Below are positions 17,199 to 43,972 of a stretch of 64,000 bases of DNA, piece after piece. Position numbers and translations under genes: made by a program. The DNA is from Cyclonatronum proteinivorum (lineage in GTDB: Bacteria; Bacteroidota; Rhodothermia; Balneolales; Cyclonatronaceae). Below the pieces are notes generated by a model. The model was not told the origin of the DNA. It saw nothing but the letters and a program-made list of their open reading frames with translations, and searched no databases. Where the stretch lies: NCBI RefSeq assembly GCF_003353065.1, contig NZ_CP027806.1, forward strand, positions 3,678,501-3,742,500, read 5' to 3'. Within the stretch, counting starts at the first letter, position 1. Every line of letters starts with the position of its first letter.

Positions 17199-17417
17199 AT
17201 GGGCTATCCTACCAAAATTCAACGCATCGACCGCAAAGCCAGCCAGCAGTGGTATGTCAATATGCCTGCCGCCGTGGCTGAAGCTATGGAATTCCAAAAA
17301 GGCGAAACCATCGAATGGATCATCGATGACCAGCAGCATATGGTTCTTAAGCGCGACGCCAAACTCGTCAGCAGCCTTAAAAAAAACTGCCTCAAACGCG
17401 CTGACAAGCCAGTTTGA
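17199..17417 (+). CDS. AbrB/SpoVT-like small protein encoded by the IS
   Basis: 72 residues: MGYPTKIQRIDRKASQQWYV, then 'NMPAAVAEAMEFQKGETIEWIIDDQQHMVLKRD'. The pattern of a swapped-hairpin AbrB-type DNA-binding fold is visible (W-Y-V-N-x-P ... F-x-K-G-E-x-I-E-W). It ends within the IS, overlapping the open frame of the transposase. An A8 run (17379-17386) lies near its 3' end, where a shift into the transposase frame would make a fusion protein. Comparable AbrB-like modules precede some IS4-like transposases. It may help bind the ends or regulate the promoter; this is inference. Confidence 0.7.
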   Translation: MGYPTKIQRIDRKASQQWYVNMPAAVAEAMEFQKGETIEWIIDDQQHMVLKRDAKLVSSLKKNCLKRADKPV

Positions 17418-17460
17418 CAGCCTGCTCCACGAATCCACTCACAGTAAACTGACGCCCAAA

Positions 17461-18834
17461 ATGCAAAGACTGGTACACGATCTTGCCTACGGTCTGGTTA
17501 ATTGTGGCGGTAAGCGCACGCTCACAGGCATGCTGAGCGGTAGCGGCAACCAGTTCTGTGACTGGACGGCCGCTTACCGGATGTTCAGCAAGCAGCGCTT
17601 TGACCCGCAGGACCTGCTGGATGTCAGCCTGCGCCACGGGGTCAGCCTGGCGCCTGACAACGCTCCGGTCATTGCCCATATCGACGATACCCTGCTGAAA
17701 AAAACAGGACGCAAAGTACATGGTGCGAAATGGCAGCGAGACCCGCTTGGACCCGCTTTCCACACCAATTTTATCTGGGCACAGCGCTTTGTACAGGCCA
17801 GTATCGCCTGCCCGGCCTCTTCGCAGCTTTGTCAGGCACGGAGTATACCGGTGAGTTTTGTCCATGCGCCCATGCCGGTTAAACCCGGCCGTAATGCGGA
17901 TCAGCTGCAAAAGGACGCTTACAAAGAAGCTAAAAAGAAAAGCAGGATAAGCTGTGTTGGCGCAAAGCTGGTGGGTTCATTGCGCCAGCGCCTCAACGAG
18001 TTGGGATCAGCCTCACGTCACCTGCTTGTAAGTTTTGATGGGGGGTATACCAATCGCGAAGTAATCCAAAACTTGCCGGCGCATACAACCTTCATCGGCA
18101 GGGTCCGCAAAGACGCTAAAATCTATGATCCACCTGCTGACCAGCCTGACACAGGGCGGCGGCGCTTGTACGGGGAGCCTAAGTTAACTCCGGACCAGAT
18201 TCGTACCAGTGATCAGGTAAGCTGGCAGAAGGTCAAAGCTTTCGCGGCAGGCAAGGAGCACGAGTTTAAATTAAAGGTAGTAGAAAACGTTAAGTGGAAG
18301 CCTGCGGGCGGGCACCAGCTACTCAAGCTTATTATTATCAGTCCTCTTGGGTACCGCTTGGCTAAAGGGGCGAACCTGTTGTACCGTAAACCCGCCTTTC
18401 TGATAACCAATGACCTGAAGTTACCGCTGCAAACCCTGCTTCAGGCTTATGTTTGGCGCTGGGAGATTGAAGTCAACTTTCGAGAGCAGAAAACCCTGAT
18501 GGGCTGCGGGCAGGCACAGGTGCGCAACCAGCACTCCGCCGAAGGTGTACCTAAGTTTGTTACAGCGGTGTACAGTCTGTTACTGCTTGCCGCTGAACAC
18601 TGCAGCAGGCAGAATGATCCACCGGTCCAAATGCTGCAACGTGCCAAGTGGTACCCCGAGAAAGAAAACAGTAGGTGGACGACAGGAGACATTTGTAACC
18701 GCTTCAGGGCGGAATACTACAGCAAAGCCATAGGGGTGAGTTTTGACGGCTTCATGAACAAAAGGTACCGAAAGCAGAACCACCTAAAACTGCTAAACCC
18801 GGCTTTATCGGCCATGATTAGCATCAGAACTTAG
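17461..18834 (+). CDS. IS4-family DDE transposase
   Basis: The ATG at 17461 (MQRLVHDLAYGLVNCGGKRT) gives 457 residues; the frame is open back to 17254, so a start further upstream or a frameshift from the AbrB-like ORF is possible. Catalytic residues, numbered in the 526-residue open frame: first Asp in 'IAHIDDTLLKKTG' (144/145), second in 'LLVSFDGGYTNREV' (262), and the YREK box Y399, R402, E406, K413 in 'AYVWRWEIEVNFREQK', an exact Y-2-R-3-E-6-K. The frame is intact with no stops, so the element could be active. The stop codon abuts the right terminal repeat. Confidence 0.9.
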   Translation: MQRLVHDLAYGLVNCGGKRTLTGMLSGSGNQFCDWTAAYRMFSKQRFDPQDLLDVSLRHGVSLAPDNAPVIAHIDDTLLKKTGRKVHGAKWQRDPLGPAFHTNFIWAQRFVQASIACPASSQLCQARSIPVSFVHAPMPVKPGRNADQLQKDAYKEAKKKSRISCVGAKLVGSLRQRLNELGSASRHLLVSFDGGYTNREVIQNLPAHTTFIGRVRKDAKIYDPPADQPDTGRRRLYGEPKLTPDQIRTSDQVSWQKVKAFAAGKEHEFKLKVVENVKWKPAGGHQLLKLIIISPLGYRLAKGANLLYRKPAFLITNDLKLPLQTLLQAYVWRWEIEVNFREQKTLMGCGQAQVRNQHSAEGVPKFVTAVYSLLLLAAEHCSRQNDPPVQMLQRAKWYPEKENSRWTTGDICNRFRAEYYSKAIGVSFDGFMNKRYRKQNHLKLLNPALSAMISIRT

Positions 18835-21241: not shown

Positions 21242-21748
21242 TTAGGTATCCAATAATAGCGCTGCAATAGTCTTCATTGGAAGAAACATTTTCACGCTGT
21301 CAGCCAGGTCAATAAAGCCGTATTTCAGATAAAAGCTTCGGGCAGCTTCATCAATAGGATCTACAATTACAGCCATCGATCCGATCGATTTAGAAGCAAC
21401 GTAGCTACGCTTTAAGGCATCCAGCAATAGACGCTCACCGAGTCGCTCTCCATCATATCTTTTGTCACGAGCCAATCTACCAAGTAAGGTAACCGGAAGC
21501 GCAGTATAGGAAGGCGGCATTTTCTTTATCACTTCAATTGGAAGAAGTTCTTTTTGAATGCCTGCATTTGAGAGGGTATAATAACCCTTGATCTCGTTAT
21601 GACTATTCACTATCACAAAACAAGCTGCTAACTTCCGCTTCATATCTTGATTAGCCTGTTTATGCAAGTATTGACTTAACTGACCTTGACTACAATCAAA
21701 CTTGTCTTTGATATGTTTTGTGGTTAGTAGCTCAGTAAGATAAGTCAT
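21242..21748 (-). CDS. GNAT acetyltransferase toxin (TacT/AtaT-like)
   Basis: 168 residues. GNAT core: 'FVIVNSHNEIKGYYTLSNAGIQ', 'VTLLGRLARDKRYDGERLGERLLLDALKRSYVASKSIGSMAVIVDP', and 'EAARSFYLKYGFIDL', with the acetyl-CoA loop RYDGERLGERL and the C-terminal Tyr in FYLKYGF. The N-terminus 'KFDCSQGQLSQYLHKQANQDMKRKLAACFV' matches toxins that acetylate aminoacyl-tRNA in DUF1778-GNAT modules. The start overlaps the upstream antitoxin by 4 bp (ATGA), a typical toxin-antitoxin arrangement. Visibly AT-rich against its neighbours, suggesting transfer. Confidence 0.88.
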   Translation of the reverse strand: MTYLTELLTTKHIKDKFDCSQGQLSQYLHKQANQDMKRKLAACFVIVNSHNEIKGYYTLSNAGIQKELLPIEVIKKMPPSYTALPVTLLGRLARDKRYDGERLGERLLLDALKRSYVASKSIGSMAVIVDPIDEAARSFYLKYGFIDLADSVKMFLPMKTIAALLLDT

Positions 21749-22026
21749 AGGTTATCAATCAGTTTTTTATACCGATCTGCGGCTTCTTTTAAATGCTTAT
21801 TGGGCTCAGCGGGGGATGTAATTGCTTCAAAGAAAATCTCCTGATCCCGCTTTGAAGCAAGTATTGTCTGATGCTCACTTACAATTAAGTCTGCTTTTTG
21901 CTGGGCAGCATGAAGTATAAAATCTGTTAGGCTTCGAAATCCACCTAACTGCGCTGCTTGCTCAAAAAATTGCTTTTGCTGACGGGGTACTCGTGCATTA
22001 ATTCTCTCAGTTGATAGTGATTCCAT
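21745..22026 (-). CDS. DUF1778 antitoxin (TacA-like)
   Basis: 93 residues. A ribbon-helix-helix N-terminus 'RINARVPRQQKQFFEQAAQLGGFRSLTDFILHAAQQKADLIV' is the DUF1778 pattern, followed by 'EHQTILASKRDQEIFFEAITSPAEPNKHLKEAADRYKKLI', the helical tail that wraps and blocks the GNAT toxin. It should bind its own promoter with the toxin; an inverted repeat TGTACG-9-CGTACA lies about 30-50 bp upstream. It is first gene of the pair. Confidence 0.9.
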   Translation of the reverse strand: MESLSTERINARVPRQQKQFFEQAAQLGGFRSLTDFILHAAQQKADLIVSEHQTILASKRDQEIFFEAITSPAEPNKHLKEAADRYKKLIDNL

Positions 22027-33236: not shown

Positions 33237-33272
33237 GTGGGGTTTTAACTGATCAAACACAATATAGTAGAC

Positions 33273-34058
33273 CTAATTCAGGCTGATTTTTCGCAGCAGC
33301 TTTCTTGAAAAATCGCGCTTAGCATCCAACGAAGAAATAATTTCACCCCCGGCATTAGAAAGTCTTGCAAGATCTTGTTTTGGAATTGCACCCAGATCGG
33401 AGAAAATCAGCAAGCTGTCAAAATCCGCTTCAACTCTTAGCAACCTTTCAATAATCATGGTCGTCAGCCGTGCTTTATCTTTGTTTGGAATCCCAAAAAG
33501 AAAAAGCGGGGCATGCTTACCTTCAATACGATAGTCGATTGGGTAGTCCTGCGCATTTTCCATTTTGTCGTAGAAATAATCTTTCACCACCTTGTCTTCA
33601 CCGACAACCTTGAATAATTCTTCCTGAAGGTCTTCATAAAAAGTTGATTCATTTCGGGATCTGTTCAAAAAGGAAAGATCATAGACTTTTGTCAGCGCCT
33701 GGCCTAACCGAAAAATATTCTGTCCTATTTCTTCAATTGGGGTTTCAATAAAGAAAGCTCCGTTATCTTCTTCTACTGACATCTCAGCCAGGATTTGTTC
33801 TAAAAGTTTACCCCTTGTTCCGGTTCTGAACTTATCAACATCATTTTCATAGCTAAGGTGCATCATGGTATGACCCATATCAGAAAGTCTTATAAGACCA
33901 CCTGGCATTTCTTGAATGTATATCTGATACGGATCTCCGTCAGCAAAAAAGAATGGCGTTTCCACTGAAATCAGACACCCGTTTTTTGCTTCCAACTTAA
34001 CTTCAGCACACATATATGTGCTGAGTGCATGCTGCAGCTTTGTAATATCGAAGTTCAT
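33273..34058 (-). CDS. DUF1828/DUF1829 domain protein
   Basis: 261 residues. The N-terminal part (about 25-125) fits DUF1828: 'ISVETPFFFADGDPYQIYIQEMPGGLIRLSDMGHTMMHLSY', with the typical D-x-x-x-x-L-S-D-x-G turn. The C-terminal part (about 150-250) fits DUF1829: 'VDYRIEGKHAPLFLFGIPNKDKARLTTMIIERLL...DSLLIFSDLGAIPKQDLARLSNAGGEIIS', with a fold pattern like nuclease or Rossmann-type cores; here the visible stretch begins YPIDYRIEGK. Its ATG overlaps the stop of the upstream gene by one base (TAATG). AT-rich against the flanking genes. The biochemical role is unknown; the domains occur in phages and accessory islands. Confidence 0.7.
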   Translation of the reverse strand: MNFDITKLQHALSTYMCAEVKLEAKNGCLISVETPFFFADGDPYQIYIQEMPGGLIRLSDMGHTMMHLSYENDVDKFRTGTRGKLLEQILAEMSVEEDNGAFFIETPIEEIGQNIFRLGQALTKVYDLSFLNRSRNESTFYEDLQEELFKVVGEDKVVKDYFYDKMENAQDYPIDYRIEGKHAPLFLFGIPNKDKARLTTMIIERLLRVEADFDSLLIFSDLGAIPKQDLARLSNAGGEIISSLDAKRDFSRKLLRKISLN

Positions 34059-34555
34059 TAATCGAATAATTTAGTTTGTCCGGTTTCATCAGGCAATGTG
34101 CTTATCCCTGAAATTTTGCAGTCTGTTATCAGACAGTGAAACGCACCCTCCAATGAAGTGAATCTGTCGGTTTCAGAAGCGTAACCTTCAGGTTTTCTAT
34201 TGGCCTTAATGTATTTTTCGGTTGCTTCGTGAATATGACAGATGTAACCAAGCCTGTATTTTTCCAGCTGATTAAAATGGTTATGACTGGGCCCATTGTA
34301 TCTGCGCAGCGTTAAAGACTCGCCGTTTGGAGCAACCCAACTTATGCCACAAGAAAAATCATCTGTCATCCCTTCCCTAAGGTTTTGACGCTTGTAAACA
34401 GAGAAAACGCATGCTGTTTTATCTGATGAAACAACTTTGTAATTCACTTGTTCATGCCCGTCTCTGACTTTCTTCTTCGCTTGAGGGTTAACCAGTTCCT
34501 TAGGACAGTCTAAAAGAGCTGCAATTACGTCATCAGATAAAATCTCAAAAGCCAT
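34058..34555 (-). CDS. partner of the DUF1828/1829 protein (DUF6978-like)
   Basis: 165 residues, no signal peptide. It begins with a helical segment 'MAFEILSDDVIAALLDCPKEL' and continues with a beta-sheet core: 'QVNYKVVSSDKTACVFSVYKRQNLREGMTDDFSCGISWVAPNGESLTLRRYNGPSHNHFN', then 'YICHIHEATEKYIKANRKPEGYASETDRFTSLEGAFHCLITDCKI'. This pattern is what I recall for DUF6978, a family seen next to DUF1828 genes; the link is from memory and not checked. It is translationally coupled to the downstream gene and preceded by two nested dyads, as expected of an autoregulated pair. Confidence 0.6.
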   Translation of the reverse strand: MAFEILSDDVIAALLDCPKELVNPQAKKKVRDGHEQVNYKVVSSDKTACVFSVYKRQNLREGMTDDFSCGISWVAPNGESLTLRRYNGPSHNHFNQLEKYRLGYICHIHEATEKYIKANRKPEGYASETDRFTSLEGAFHCLITDCKISGISTLPDETGQTKLFD

Positions 34556-34910
34556 ACTTAATACTTTTATAAAACAGTACGGATTTACAATAGCTTTTCA
34601 CTGAGAGCCATTGACCTTATTTAAAATAAGGTTCTGTAAATAAAAACAGAACGGACGGTGAGCATAATAGAAAAGTCATTTTGTCTGGCACAATAGGCGC
34701 AAAGAATGATAATTTACCTGCAATCCCGACTGATAAGGAATCTCCCTTCTTAGGAATATGAGTCCACAATAATTAACACAAGAACAATTTCCGAACTTGT
34801 TGGAGGGGTTAAGTTCAGGCGGATTTACCGCTACTGACCGTAATGTGCAAGAAATTCCCCTTATCAAACAGAGACAAAGATGTTCCGATCACAGGGCACC
34901 TAAATATCGC
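34556..34910. other. intergenic region, 355 bp, upstream of the DUF1828 pair
   Basis: It holds the dyads described at 34615-34652 and otherwise AT-rich DNA up to the photolyase stop. No gene was seen. Confidence 0.5.
34615..34652 (-). promoter_or_regulatory. two adjacent dyads upstream of the DUF1828 pair
   Basis: CCTTATTT-A-AAATAAGG (34615-34631) is a perfect dyad and directly abuts GTTCTGT-8-ACAGAAC (34631-34652). They lie 60-97 bp upstream of the first ATG of the pair. Both could be operators for a self-regulating module. Confidence 0.5.
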
Positions 34911-36380
34911 TCAGAACCGCGCGTATTTTTTGAGGTATTCTTTGATTTTGACTTTTTTACGCGTGCTGTCGCTGGTCATGTAGCGGACCTTGCCGAAGAT
35001 TTTGCGCTCGGGACCCCAGGCGCGGTCGAAGCGGCCGAAAATCCAGAAGATGCCGGAGTAGCTGTTGGGGTCGCGGCCGTCGATGGCGTAGATGTTGTTG
35101 AGGCGGATGAGGTAGTCGAGGGCAGTGCGGGCGTCGGGCGTCCATTGGAGGACTTTTTTGCCCCAGAGCATGCGCAGGTAGTTGTGGATGCGGCCTTCTC
35201 GTACGAGCTGCCGCTGCGCTGCATTCCAGATGTCATCTTCCGTTTCGGCGTTCGCGAGCTGTTCGTAGGTGTACACGACGGGCCGCGGATCGGCCTCGTG
35301 CTCGGTGAGGGTTTCCTGAGCCCAGTCAGGCAGGGACTCAAATTGATCGTAGTTAGGGGTGTGGTGCGCAAAATGGAAGCCGACTTCCCGCCAGGTGATG
35401 AGCTCGTCGAGCCAGGCTTCGATGCCGGTTTCGCCGCCGAAGAAGCCGTCGCGCTTGCCGTTTTGGGGCTTGAGTGTATCCCGGCTCCAGTCACGCGGCT
35501 GACGCCGAAGCGCGTGATCGACCAGCTCGTGCTCGCTGATTTTGCCGAAATGCAGCCACGGACTCAGGCGGCTTGTGCCCTCGGTATCCGGATCGTTGCG
35601 CTCTTCGTCGTAGGCTTTGAGATCGAATTCGAGGAACTGCGTCGTACGCTCGAGTCCGGCTTTGCGGGTGCCTTCGATTGCGAGCGGCTTCACGCTTTGA
35701 TCGACATCAATGCCGGCAAGCCACTCCTTCGAAAAACGCCCTGCCGTTTTAGCGTCCGGATATTTTTGGGTTACGGATTCCCCGAGCTGAACCATGTCAC
35801 GGTTCTGGAGATCCGCCAGCGGATTTTCTTTCGGGGGATGCTCAAAGCAATGCCGGAATTGTTTCTGCATGGTTTTCCGGAAAATGTAGGCCGAATAGGG
35901 CGCTTTATCGGTCATTTTCATCGGGATGATGCCGTTGGAATCAATCGAGTAGTAGGGCACATCCAGCGTTTGCGGGATGCTCTCGTTACGCTTGCGCATG
36001 ATGAAAATCGGGTACTCGTCGGTCACGACCAGACAGGATTTCGCCGCCAGCTCGCGAAACAGCGCAGGATACTCGCCGGCTTCCTCCTCCAGAAAGCTGT
36101 AGTAGTTGAAGCCCTCTTTTTCGGCAATTTCCTGATGCTCGGCCATGCCCTGCATGATGAACCAATGCGTACGCGCCGTACGCCAGGGGTAGTCGCAGGA
36201 TAGCGCTTCGAAAACCAGCAGCGGCTTGCCGAGCTTGTTGGCCCAGGCGACGGCGTATTCGAGCGCGAAATTGTAGTGCAGCCGCCGGTTGATCTGCATC
36301 CAGTAGAGGACAAATTCGCCCTCGGGATTGGGTTCGTTTTCGTTGCGCTTGAACACGCGCAGGCTGTTGATGTTTTTCAT
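34911..36380 (-). CDS. class II CPD deoxyribodipyrimidine photolyase
   Basis: 489 residues. The N-terminal antenna-type domain starts 'EFVLYWMQINRRLHYNFALEYAVAWANKLGKPLLVFEAL'. The FAD-binding half has 'TSRLSPWLHFGKISEHELVDHAL', 'LDELITWREVGFHFAHH', 'IHNYLRMLWGKKVLQWTPDARTALDYLIRLNNIYAIDGRDPNSYSGIFWIFGRFDRAWGPERKIFGKVRYMTSD'. The LNNxYAIDGRDPNSYxGIFWxFGRxDRAWGPER block is diagnostic of class II enzymes. It reverses cyclobutane pyrimidine dimers in blue light. It lies 125 bp downstream of a (6-4)-type photolyase gene in the same direction, so the two cover both main UV lesions. Confidence 0.93.
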   Translation of the reverse strand: MKNINSLRVFKRNENEPNPEGEFVLYWMQINRRLHYNFALEYAVAWANKLGKPLLVFEALSCDYPWRTARTHWFIMQGMAEHQEIAEKEGFNYYSFLEEEAGEYPALFRELAAKSCLVVTDEYPIFIMRKRNESIPQTLDVPYYSIDSNGIIPMKMTDKAPYSAYIFRKTMQKQFRHCFEHPPKENPLADLQNRDMVQLGESVTQKYPDAKTAGRFSKEWLAGIDVDQSVKPLAIEGTRKAGLERTTQFLEFDLKAYDEERNDPDTEGTSRLSPWLHFGKISEHELVDHALRRQPRDWSRDTLKPQNGKRDGFFGGETGIEAWLDELITWREVGFHFAHHTPNYDQFESLPDWAQETLTEHEADPRPVVYTYEQLANAETEDDIWNAAQRQLVREGRIHNYLRMLWGKKVLQWTPDARTALDYLIRLNNIYAIDGRDPNSYSGIFWIFGRFDRAWGPERKIFGKVRYMTSDSTRKKVKIKEYLKKYARF

Positions 36381-36504
36381 TTCGGGAAGGATGTTGGATT
36401 AAAAGGCGGTCATCGGTTACCGGCACCCACGGAAAGGGATCGGCCCGGCACTTTTGATTTGAAGCAGGCAGGGGAACGGGCAAGGGGCGCATCCCCCGAA
36501 AAAA

Positions 36505-38058
36505 TCAGGTATGCTCGTAGCGCTCGAGGGCGTCGATGTAGCGCGCTGCATCCTCGCGGATTTGCTGCCGCTCTTCCGGGCTTTTTTTGTTGAGCATGTT
36601 CAGCATGAAGGAGACGCGTCCGTTTTCCTCGAAGGCCGGCTGATGGTTGTCCACAAAGTTCCAGTACAGGTAGTTGAGGGGGCAGGCTTTAGGGCCATTT
36701 TTCTTGCTGACCGAGTAGTGACAGTTTTTGCAATAGTCGCTCATCTTATTGATGTAGTTACCGCTCGACACGTAGGGCTTGGAGGCCAGCACGCCGCCAT
36801 CGGCAAAGGTGCTCATCCCGAGCACGTTGGGCAGCACGACCCACTCCCAGGCGTCAAGGTAGCCGTACCAGAACCATTTGAGCAGTTCGCGCGGGTCGGT
36901 TTCGGTAAGGTTGCTGTAATTGCTGAGGACCATCAGCCGCGGGATGTGGTGCGAGTAGCCGGTCTCAAGCACCGGTTTGACGCACTCGCTGATACACTTC
37001 ATATTGGTTTCGCCGGTCCAGAACGACATCGGCAAGCCGCGCTCAAAGCCGAAGGTGTTGGCCAGCCGCACTTCGGGCATCATGGCCTCGTAGTAGTTGC
37101 GGATGTACTCGCGCCAGCCGATAATTTGCCGGATGTACCCCTCGACCGAGTTGATGGGCGCGCTGCCGTTTTCCCAGGCTTCGAGGGCGCGCTCGCACAA
37201 CTCTTCGGCTCCGAGCAGGCCGTTGTTCATATAAATAGAGAGCGTCGAGTGATAAACCACATACTCGCCGGTGACGAGCGCATCTTCGTAAGGACCAAAT
37301 TCTTTGAAGCGGTTTTGGAAGAAGTCATCGGCAGCGTTGAGTGCCCCGGCGCGGTCAACGGCGTGATTAAATCCCGCGGTTTCACCCCAGTGATCGGGGA
37401 AACGGGATGCGACTTCCTCCATAACGGCTTGCGTGATGGCATCGGGCGCGAAAGTGACCGGCTTGGGCGGCTTTTTCCCTTTTGGGAGTTTTTTGCGGTT
37501 TTCCTTGTCGTAGTTCCAGTCCCCGCCTTCGGGTTTACCGTTCTGCATCAGATAGCCAGTCCGCTTGCGCATCTCCCGGTAAAAATACTCCAGGAGATAT
37601 CCCCCTGCCATTTTCTCCCTCCACTCCTCGGGGTCGGACATAAAAAAGGTGTTGGGATGGCATTCGAGCGTACCCGTCTTTTCGGCCAAAGCCGCAAGTT
37701 CCTGACGCAAATCGTATTCCGCGGGCTGCATATAGTGCAGCTCATGCTCTCCGGAAGCAAGACGCGCTTCAAGCTGTGCCGCAACAGCTTCTTCCCCTTT
37801 CAGATAGGCGACCTGCCAGCCTTCCTCCATGCACTCCGTCGCGAAATGCCGCTGCGCACTCCAGATGTAGGTGATTTTTTTCTTGTGAAAAGGCAGCTTC
37901 GAGACCTCTGCGGCTGACTCGCAAAAAATCAGGCTGTTTTTTTCGGGGGTAAAGGAGGATGGAATCTGAGCCCGGTTCAGCTGATCGGCATTGACAAACC
38001 AAAGCTGTTTATGGAGCCTGCCGGAGGAAGAAAATTCGGAAAGGGTATCGCCTGACAT
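36505..38058 (-). CDS. FeS-type (6-4) photolyase / bacterial cryptochrome (PhrB/CryB-like)
   Basis: Start taken at the ATG at 38058 (MSGDTLSEF...), since the longer frame begins with TTG close to the divergent gene. About 517 residues. The N-terminus 'QLWFVNADQLNRAQIPSS' resembles the DQLN opening of FeS-BCP proteins. The C-terminal half has 'NSVEGYIRQIIGWREYIRNYYE', 'FWTGETNMKCISECVKPVLETGYSHHIPRLMVLSNYSNLTETDPRELLKWFWYGYLDAWEWVVLPNVLGMSTFADGG' and 'YVSSGNYINKMSDYCKNCHYSVSKKNGPKACPLNYLYWNF'. The four cysteines (one in MKCISEC, CKNC, ACPLNY) fit the 4Fe-4S ligands. It repairs (6-4) photoproducts or acts as a light sensor. Confidence 0.92.
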   Translation of the reverse strand: MSGDTLSEFSSSGRLHKQLWFVNADQLNRAQIPSSFTPEKNSLIFCESAAEVSKLPFHKKKITYIWSAQRHFATECMEEGWQVAYLKGEEAVAAQLEARLASGEHELHYMQPAEYDLRQELAALAEKTGTLECHPNTFFMSDPEEWREKMAGGYLLEYFYREMRKRTGYLMQNGKPEGGDWNYDKENRKKLPKGKKPPKPVTFAPDAITQAVMEEVASRFPDHWGETAGFNHAVDRAGALNAADDFFQNRFKEFGPYEDALVTGEYVVYHSTLSIYMNNGLLGAEELCERALEAWENGSAPINSVEGYIRQIIGWREYIRNYYEAMMPEVRLANTFGFERGLPMSFWTGETNMKCISECVKPVLETGYSHHIPRLMVLSNYSNLTETDPRELLKWFWYGYLDAWEWVVLPNVLGMSTFADGGVLASKPYVSSGNYINKMSDYCKNCHYSVSKKNGPKACPLNYLYWNFVDNHQPAFEENGRVSFMLNMLNKKSPEERQQIREDAARYIDALERYEHT

Positions 38059-38155
38059 TCGGGATTGCTGTTTTTTGGGATTGGATTTACAGCTTTGTAA
38101 CTCTATACTTTGGGGCAATCATTCACGGAACCGGTCTAAACAAGCCCCGCAAAGG

Positions 38156-42868: not shown

Positions 42869-43336
42869 CTACTGCTTGATCCGAAAATCGAACTTAAGGG
42901 GAATTACCGACACAACAGTTATACTTCGCGCGTCCGGGTGAAGGGGGTTGATGAGATAGTTGAATGATGCCGGAACAATGGCACTTGGTACTTTCAGGAC
43001 AGCCGCGCCCTGTTGCATTACAAAATCGTCCCCGATAAGCTGGGTCTCAGATGTCGGAGGCTTGGCGTCCCAAGTGTCCGGCAGATTATCCGGATTTAGC
43101 ACCTGAACAGAAACCGAATCAGGAATTTCTATTTCGACATAAACACGGTCGGTCGGTAAATCTTCGCTGATGTCGAGGTGCACGGAAATTTCAAGCAACG
43201 CAAGCGCACGGCTTTCAGAAGTGTACACAAGACGCGTGTAAAGGCTGTTCCACCTAAAACCTGAAGACCGCGCAGCTCCTATGCCCTGCAGAGTCGTTTC
43301 GAGATACTTTTTCCGCTCAACCCGAAATACGCGCAT
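42869..43336 (-). CDS. RES-domain toxin
   Basis: 155 residues. RES pattern: 'MRVFRVERKKYLETTLQGIGAARSSGFRWNSLYTRLVYTSESRALALLEISVHL', with the conserved Arg-...-Tyr-...-Glu triad (R in VFRV, Y in RLVYTSES, E in LLEISVH) and a final 'AVLKVPSAIVPASFNYLINPLHPDARSITV'. RES toxins degrade NAD+ by phosphorolysis. It lies 3 bp downstream of the Xre/MbcA-ParS-type antitoxin, the usual gene order. It is complete at about family length. Whether it is active here is inferred. Confidence 0.9.
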   Translation of the reverse strand: MRVFRVERKKYLETTLQGIGAARSSGFRWNSLYTRLVYTSESRALALLEISVHLDISEDLPTDRVYVEIEIPDSVSVQVLNPDNLPDTWDAKPPTSETQLIGDDFVMQQGAAVLKVPSAIVPASFNYLINPLHPDARSITVVSVIPLKFDFRIKQ

Positions 43337-43339
43337 TAA

Positions 43340-43828
43340 TCAGGCCAGATTACCGTACTCAAGGCGTAACAAAGCATTTTTGACTTCTGCAATGCCTGTC
43401 ACAGAATCGAAAAGACTAACAGGCGTGACCCCACCCAGTGAAATATTATTTTTTTTGAGCCAGCGCTGAAATTTCTTCTCATCATCATTGAACACAGACT
43501 TTCCAAAAGTCAGCAACTCAATAAGGATCAGCACCATCTCAGAGTCACGACTGCTGAGTAACTCCGGTGCACGTTTCTTTTTGTTGTAAGTTGTTTTATG
43601 AATGCCAATGAGTTCGAGTACCTGCTGAATCGGAACCCCTGCCTGCCGTGCGACTACTTCCAAAGTTTCTACGGGAAGCCTGTTTCGGATCAGATCAACC
43701 CGTTCCATTTGTGTGGCCCATTTATAGGTTTTACTTCGGGCATTGATTTGCCATCCGCCGCGATTTCGTCTCTGGCGCTTCAACTGGGTTGAAATTTTTG
43801 AAGGCTGAAAAATTTCTGTGCTACTCAT
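43340..43828 (-). CDS. Xre/MbcA/ParS antitoxin partner of the RES toxin
   Basis: 162 residues from the ATG (MSSTEIFQPS...); a TTG two codons earlier is less likely. It has an Xre-like helix-turn-helix ('LPVETLEVVARQAGVPIQQVLELIGIHKTTYNKKK', about 50-90) and a C-terminal MbcA/ParS toxin-binding domain ('DDEKKFQRWLKKNNISLGGVTPVSLFDSVTGIAEVKNALLRLEYG'), where 'GGxxPxxLxxxxxGxxxVxxxLxRxEYG' is the DUF2384 hallmark. It blocks the NADase and represses the operon in described systems. It is first gene of the pair. Confidence 0.92.
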   Translation of the reverse strand: MSSTEIFQPSKISTQLKRQRRNRGGWQINARSKTYKWATQMERVDLIRNRLPVETLEVVARQAGVPIQQVLELIGIHKTTYNKKKRAPELLSSRDSEMVLILIELLTFGKSVFNDDEKKFQRWLKKNNISLGGVTPVSLFDSVTGIAEVKNALLRLEYGNLA

Positions 43829-43972
43829 TGGCAATCAAAATGGTTTAAGACAAATAAGCTTAGACATTATATGTTACAATATTTCTGCTACCCAAGCAAC
43901 ATGCCCTCTGCTCGCTTACTTTGATATACACCAACCAAAACAGGTATTGAGTGCTACATCAAAATCACCACC

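Follow-up and report, generated by a model that had tools for sequence, protein, structure and literature searches.

A mobile gene pair of the DUF6978-DUF1828 type in Cyclonatronum proteinivorum, with a predicted sliding-clamp-binding tail and a candidate role in phage defense

In the 64,000-nt stretch of Cyclonatronum proteinivorum DNA that was analyzed (contig NZ_CP027806.1, positions 3,678,501 to 3,742,500; hereafter, the window), two minus-strand genes form a compact cassette. Gene A (34058-34555), the upstream member, codes for a 165-aa DUF6978-like protein (phrog_27326) and is the putative effector, and gene B (33273-34058), downstream of it, codes for a 261-aa DUF1828 protein resembling PDC-M24B, the putative neutralizer. 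As an earlier sequence-only reading had it, the two genes are coupled through TAATG, a one-base overlap between the TAA of gene A and the ATG of gene B, and are AT-rich in composition, with a G+C content of 0.40 vs 0.52 for the window. The whole cassette (33237-34910) constitutes an insertion of about 1.7 kb, devoid of further element genes, between a gene for a 160-aa protein and a photolyase gene, two chromosomal genes which face it with their 3′ ends. In the sister genome G022, in which the photolyase is 91% identical to that of the window genome, the positions equivalent to 33223 and 34915 are separated by only about 55 bp, without the cassette, and a diverged A-B pair, its A broken by a stop codon, is present elsewhere; the cassette was therefore either gained in the window genome or lost in its sisters. 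No other recognized defense gene adjoins the pair in the window neighborhood. The photolyase gene and an adjacent photolyase-related (DPRP) gene beside the cassette (34911-38118, minus strand) are ordinary chromosomal neighbors, and a DDE-type transposase gene is located about 14 kb away (17254-18834, plus strand). The two known toxin-antitoxin pairs reported earlier for the window are indeed there, both on the minus strand. In one (21242-22026), the antitoxin is of the TacA type and its partner a GNAT protein; in the other (42869-43834), the toxin is RES and the antitoxin Xre/ParS.

About 60-97 nt upstream of the gene A start codon, there are two abutting inverted repeats, both exact and each unique in the window: a 9-1-9 repeat at 34614-34632, ACCTTATTT-A-AAATAAGGT (which contains CCTTATTT-A-AAATAAGG), and a 7-8-7 repeat at 34631-34652, GTTCTGT-N8-ACAGAAC. 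When the 355-bp spacer is shuffled (first order), a single dyad of such size is not rare, with one or more arising in 20% of cases; two or more dyads anywhere are seen in 2.8%, and two abutting ones in 0.13%. The repeats had been interpreted as nested operators through which the pair would regulate itself. This interpretation is not supported, since the same dyads were found upstream of A in 0 of 13 relatives examined, and no DNA-binding domain was recognized in the A-B pair. The second dyad scores as terminator-like on the minus, i.e. coding, strand. A LexA (SOS) box within that dyad was considered and rejected, in that CTGTN8ACAG is absent from the approximately 500 bp upstream of recA and lexA in the same genome. 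Throughout that genome, CTGTN8ACAG occurs at 69 places vs 16 for its reversed control, an excess of about fourfold, and one of these copies precedes a UmuD-like gene by about 145 nt.

Gene B is matched by DUF1828 (E 1.3e-24), by phrog_5059 (E 1.3e-42) and, over residues 5-149, by the PDC-M24B model (E 7.9e-18). DUF1829, which had been named for this cassette together with DUF1828, matches canonical relatives only and yields no match to window B. The B profile aligns with that of canonical DUF1828-DUF1829 proteins over 224 columns (99.4%, E 5e-21). Gene A is matched by phrog_27326 (E 2.1e-50), and taken alone has no significant Pfam match; however, DUF6978 is matched, at a permissive threshold, by 29 of the 32 aligned A relatives (best 7e-12), and profile-profile comparison gives a 136-column alignment of A to canonical DUF6978 (96.8%, E 2e-10), which identifies it at the profile level as a remote DUF6978 protein. 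A search for solved relatives by sequence found none.

PADLOC lists a phage-defense candidate, PDC-M24, that is made up of these families with identical gene order and coupling (PDC-M24A, DUF6978; PDC-M24B, DUF1828-DUF1829), and its A and B models match the canonical relatives. The window pair differs in that none of the PDC-M24A models matches its A, while its B lacks the DUF1829 match; in the A protein of one phage relative (L113), PDC-M24A is matched at 1.2e-8. With window A unmatched by PDC-M24A, yet homologous to DUF6978 at the profile level, the pair is best described by sequence as a divergent relative or branch of PDC-M24, not a strict member. The earlier suggestion of a third, unrecognized type of toxin-antitoxin pair holds insofar as the literature searched describes no mechanism for PDC-M24, DUF1828 or DUF6978, but as a defense candidate the family already has a catalogue entry.

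The A-B pair is a unit. Of 394 genomes surveyed within the phylum, 31 contain A and 52 contain DUF1828, and all 29 solid A matches are followed immediately, on the same strand, by a DUF1828 gene B (tallied from two coordinate lists); most of the DUF1828 genes without a recognized A are directly preceded by a DUF6978-like gene, which in the usual case overlaps them by 4 nt. Viral contigs yielded 36 non-redundant A-B pairs, every one with this gene order; no matches to A were found in plasmids. Among broken copies, A is disrupted and B intact in eight cases, B is disrupted and A intact in four, and both are disrupted in two. We considered assigning the toxin from these copies, and rejected it, as eight against four is too weak a difference to tell the harmful partner. 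Frameshifts and stops disrupt both genes in Pseudomonas phage PACT201 (L009, 5961-7218).

In viral genomes, the pair resides in the lysogeny region, as exemplified by Pseudomonas phages 5399 and 5371, where it is placed behind cI. Of the 36 viral pairs, 30 are preceded within 1.6 kb by a repressor-type gene of the same strand; when two seed families unconfirmed by PHROGs are dropped, the count is 27. B also has an integrase gene nearby in a Latilactobacillus phage and on a plasmid from staphylococci that carries phage genes. A second type of context is provided by restriction-modification genes. In L005 (4352-10979), the pair, its A containing an internal stop, is placed between a DNA methylase gene and a ResIII-type gene, directly before the latter, and in L006 (1971-5295) it follows a DNA methylase gene, as if it were built into a restriction-modification operon; in L083 its neighbors are an N6 methylase gene on one side and a specificity gene on the other, and in L092 and L094 beside methylases or ResIII genes. 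In the neighborhood analysis for defense linkage that the sequence-only reading had proposed, restriction-modification-like genes accompany 8 of about 46 bacterial loci at distances of up to 8 kb, an observation rather than a measured enrichment, given the small seed set without control loci; most bacterial copies showed no such neighbor with these few seeds. A toxin-antitoxin or phage-defense module, as had been envisaged, agrees with an accessory mobile pair associated with PDC-M24, repressors, restriction-modification genes and an insertion, but the autoregulatory part of that proposal is not supported.

The predicted model of A (mean pLDDT 93) shows a large antiparallel sheet, helices close to either end, and a tail which appears flexible (pLDDT near 60). 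The fold search proposed earlier returned no confident match for A in PDB (best Z 5.5, 4.2 Å over 99 residues), a result which does not imply a new fold; in a viral structure library, the best hit is one uncharacterized phage protein (E 1.9e-3). Conservation is strongest at R56-Q57, S68, R85-Y86-N87-G88, H91, H93, N95, H107-I-H109 and A111-T112, and this R/Y/N/H patch resembles an active or binding site, with a catalytic role being putative. TumE-TumA (DUF6516; PMC10584680) is comparable in being a bicistronic system with a small alpha+beta protein that bears R-x-D-N and H-x-H and has no PDB match. We considered A as a TumE homolog on the strength of its R-Y-D-N/H-x-H residues and rejected it, as profile-profile comparison finds no relationship (hhalign probability 0.2% with both A6 and A9).

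The C-terminus of A offers a concrete clue. Window A ends in GQTKLFD, with QTKLF (residues 160-164; codons at 34064-34078, minus strand) forming a Q-x-x-L-F motif behind the flexible linker. The motif is family-wide, and its variants at A C-termini, preceded by a linker that varies across the family, include QLDLF, QIDLF, QFDLF, QLSLL, QLSLI, QMSLGL, QLSLGI, QLSFF, QLSFDL, QMGLF and QTSLF. The bacterial clamp-binding consensus is likewise a C-terminal QL(S/D)LF (PMC9690074). Within the last 11 residues, the canonical motif was found in 16 of the 47 non-redundant A proteins vs 1 of 1033 control ORFs (at least 200 aa, from the same DNA), and a loose version, which includes the QTKLF of the window, in 29 of 47 vs 13 of 1033; the regular expressions were written after viewing the family, a post-hoc choice which inflates significance, though hardly by such a factor. 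In about one third of A proteins, the tail is degenerate or missing, and canonical PDC-M24 A proteins have less clamp-like tails than the window branch. Because the replicative polymerase DnaE of the host carries QFSLF at residue 914, and its Pol IV has QLELF near the C-terminus, both of the same type, the host clamp could plausibly accept QTKLF. Docking of A on the sliding clamp via its tail is well supported by sequence, from which we infer binding in vivo, and such a tail appears, as far as the literature searched shows, to be new for this family. In one phage A subgroup from viral contigs (L118, L156, L172 and L175), the motif glutamine is lost, and the C-termini read DMWGD or DLFGG followed by additional residues.

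The predicted model of B (mean pLDDT 89, pTM 0.55) contains two domains. Residues 1-130 (33669-34058, minus strand), which include DUF1828, are predicted to adopt a type III secretion chaperone-like fold, matching ExsC (Z 9.0, 3.6 Å over 116 residues) and InvB (Z 8.9, 3.2 Å over 107), and residues 135-260 (33279-33656, minus strand) a PD-(D/E)XK-like fold, matching Cdn1 (Z 9.8, 3.5 Å over 118) and Can2 (Z 9.6, 3.2 Å over 116), with a best Foldseek E of 5.6e-3. These scores are only moderately above the usual background, with each list of matches dominated by one fold. As far as could be seen from the literature searched, both predicted folds would be new for B.

Taken together, these features suggest that the pair is a mobile module which resembles a toxin-antitoxin system and probably acts against phages, with A docking on the clamp and being kept under restraint by B; we consider this reading evenly balanced between right and wrong. 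A would be a compact beta-rich effector, with the R/Y/N/H patch as its candidate active site and the C-terminal QTKLF docking on the bacterial sliding clamp (DnaN). B, produced right behind A, would bind it in the role of a chaperone-like partner and thereby keep it in check; infection would upset the A/B balance, and freed A, presumed harmful, would act at the replication fork, blocking or damaging it, so that phage growth is aborted. Its extension to the family at large, i.e. that widespread DUF6978-DUF1828 modules confer immunity at the fork by means of an effector tethered to the clamp and held by a chaperone-like partner, is put forward tentatively, as somewhat less than an even prospect. 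The clamp tail provides the first concrete lead to a possible mechanism for this family, and, together with the predicted folds of B, it is directly testable.

Precedents exist for parts of this scheme. DUF1829 has recently become linked to phage defense through HipAD/DS-6 (PMC13092281), a validated defense system in which it occurs in DS-6B, the protein predicted to be on the antitoxin side; PDC-M24 itself is a defense candidate without a mechanism. HipAD/DS-6, composed of a HipA-like kinase and a DUF3037-DUF1829 partner, is also a two-gene module with DUF1829 on the predicted antitoxin side; it differs in its effector, a HipA-type kinase unrelated to A, and in that window B has DUF1828 without detectable DUF1829. 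Toxins acting on the sliding clamp are represented by SocB and by RipA of the RosmerTA pair RipA/RipB, for which suppressor mutations map to the hydrophobic pocket of DnaN (PMC12795458). By analogy with SocAB and RipA/RipB, the ligand pocket of DnaN would be the target of one small protein encoded in a two-gene module, although no sequence relation to either was seen, and clamp binding by the window pair is predicted from the tail motif alone. A conserved clamp-binding tail, if confirmed, would put the effector at the replication fork, and would add another kind to the few sliding-clamp-targeting toxins, one carried by many temperate phages.

The C-terminal domain of B allows for a different division of labor, in which A would be a clamp-riding adaptor bringing B to the forks, and the PD-(D/E)XK-like domain of B would attack phage DNA. 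Its fold is of the nuclease type, similar to that of restriction enzymes and of the CRISPR ancillary nucleases Can2 and Cdn1, some copies of the pair reside in restriction-modification operons, and D143, D175 and R232 are conserved, with D175 and R232 invariant in 32 of 32 aligned rows. However, no E/D-x-K catalytic motif was found in B, the window branch having F-G-V/I at the E-x-K position, so that B is probably not a standard nuclease; the fold may be structural alone, and we regard such replisome-guided attack as unlikely. Rather unlikely, too, is a function that is neither toxic nor defensive, with A and B tuning the replisome or repair machinery of the host on behalf of the element. Tails that bind the clamp are a typical feature of polymerases and of repair proteins, one further chaperone-fold match of B is the Deinococcus protein DR_1245, and some losses of a single gene, be it A or B, are tolerated; yet occurrence of the pair is patchy and mobile, and its sites behind phage repressors and inside restriction-modification operons are typical of accessory immunity genes.

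Type III chaperone folds bind extended partner segments, and the flexible QxxLF tail might be the segment of A that is held by the chaperone-like domain, or else a C-terminal degradation signal, instead of a clamp tag. We consider this improbable in view of the five- and six-residue spacings of the motif in the family (QLDLF; QMSLGL, QLSLGI), which are those of known clamp ligands, the presence of the same motif in host polymerases, and the several residues which sometimes follow it, unlike in a strict C-terminal degron. A decaying mobile-element remnant with no present function in the host, as might be suggested by the absence of other element genes from the insertion and by the several broken relatives, is highly improbable, since both window genes are intact and retain the family-conserved residues and the tail.
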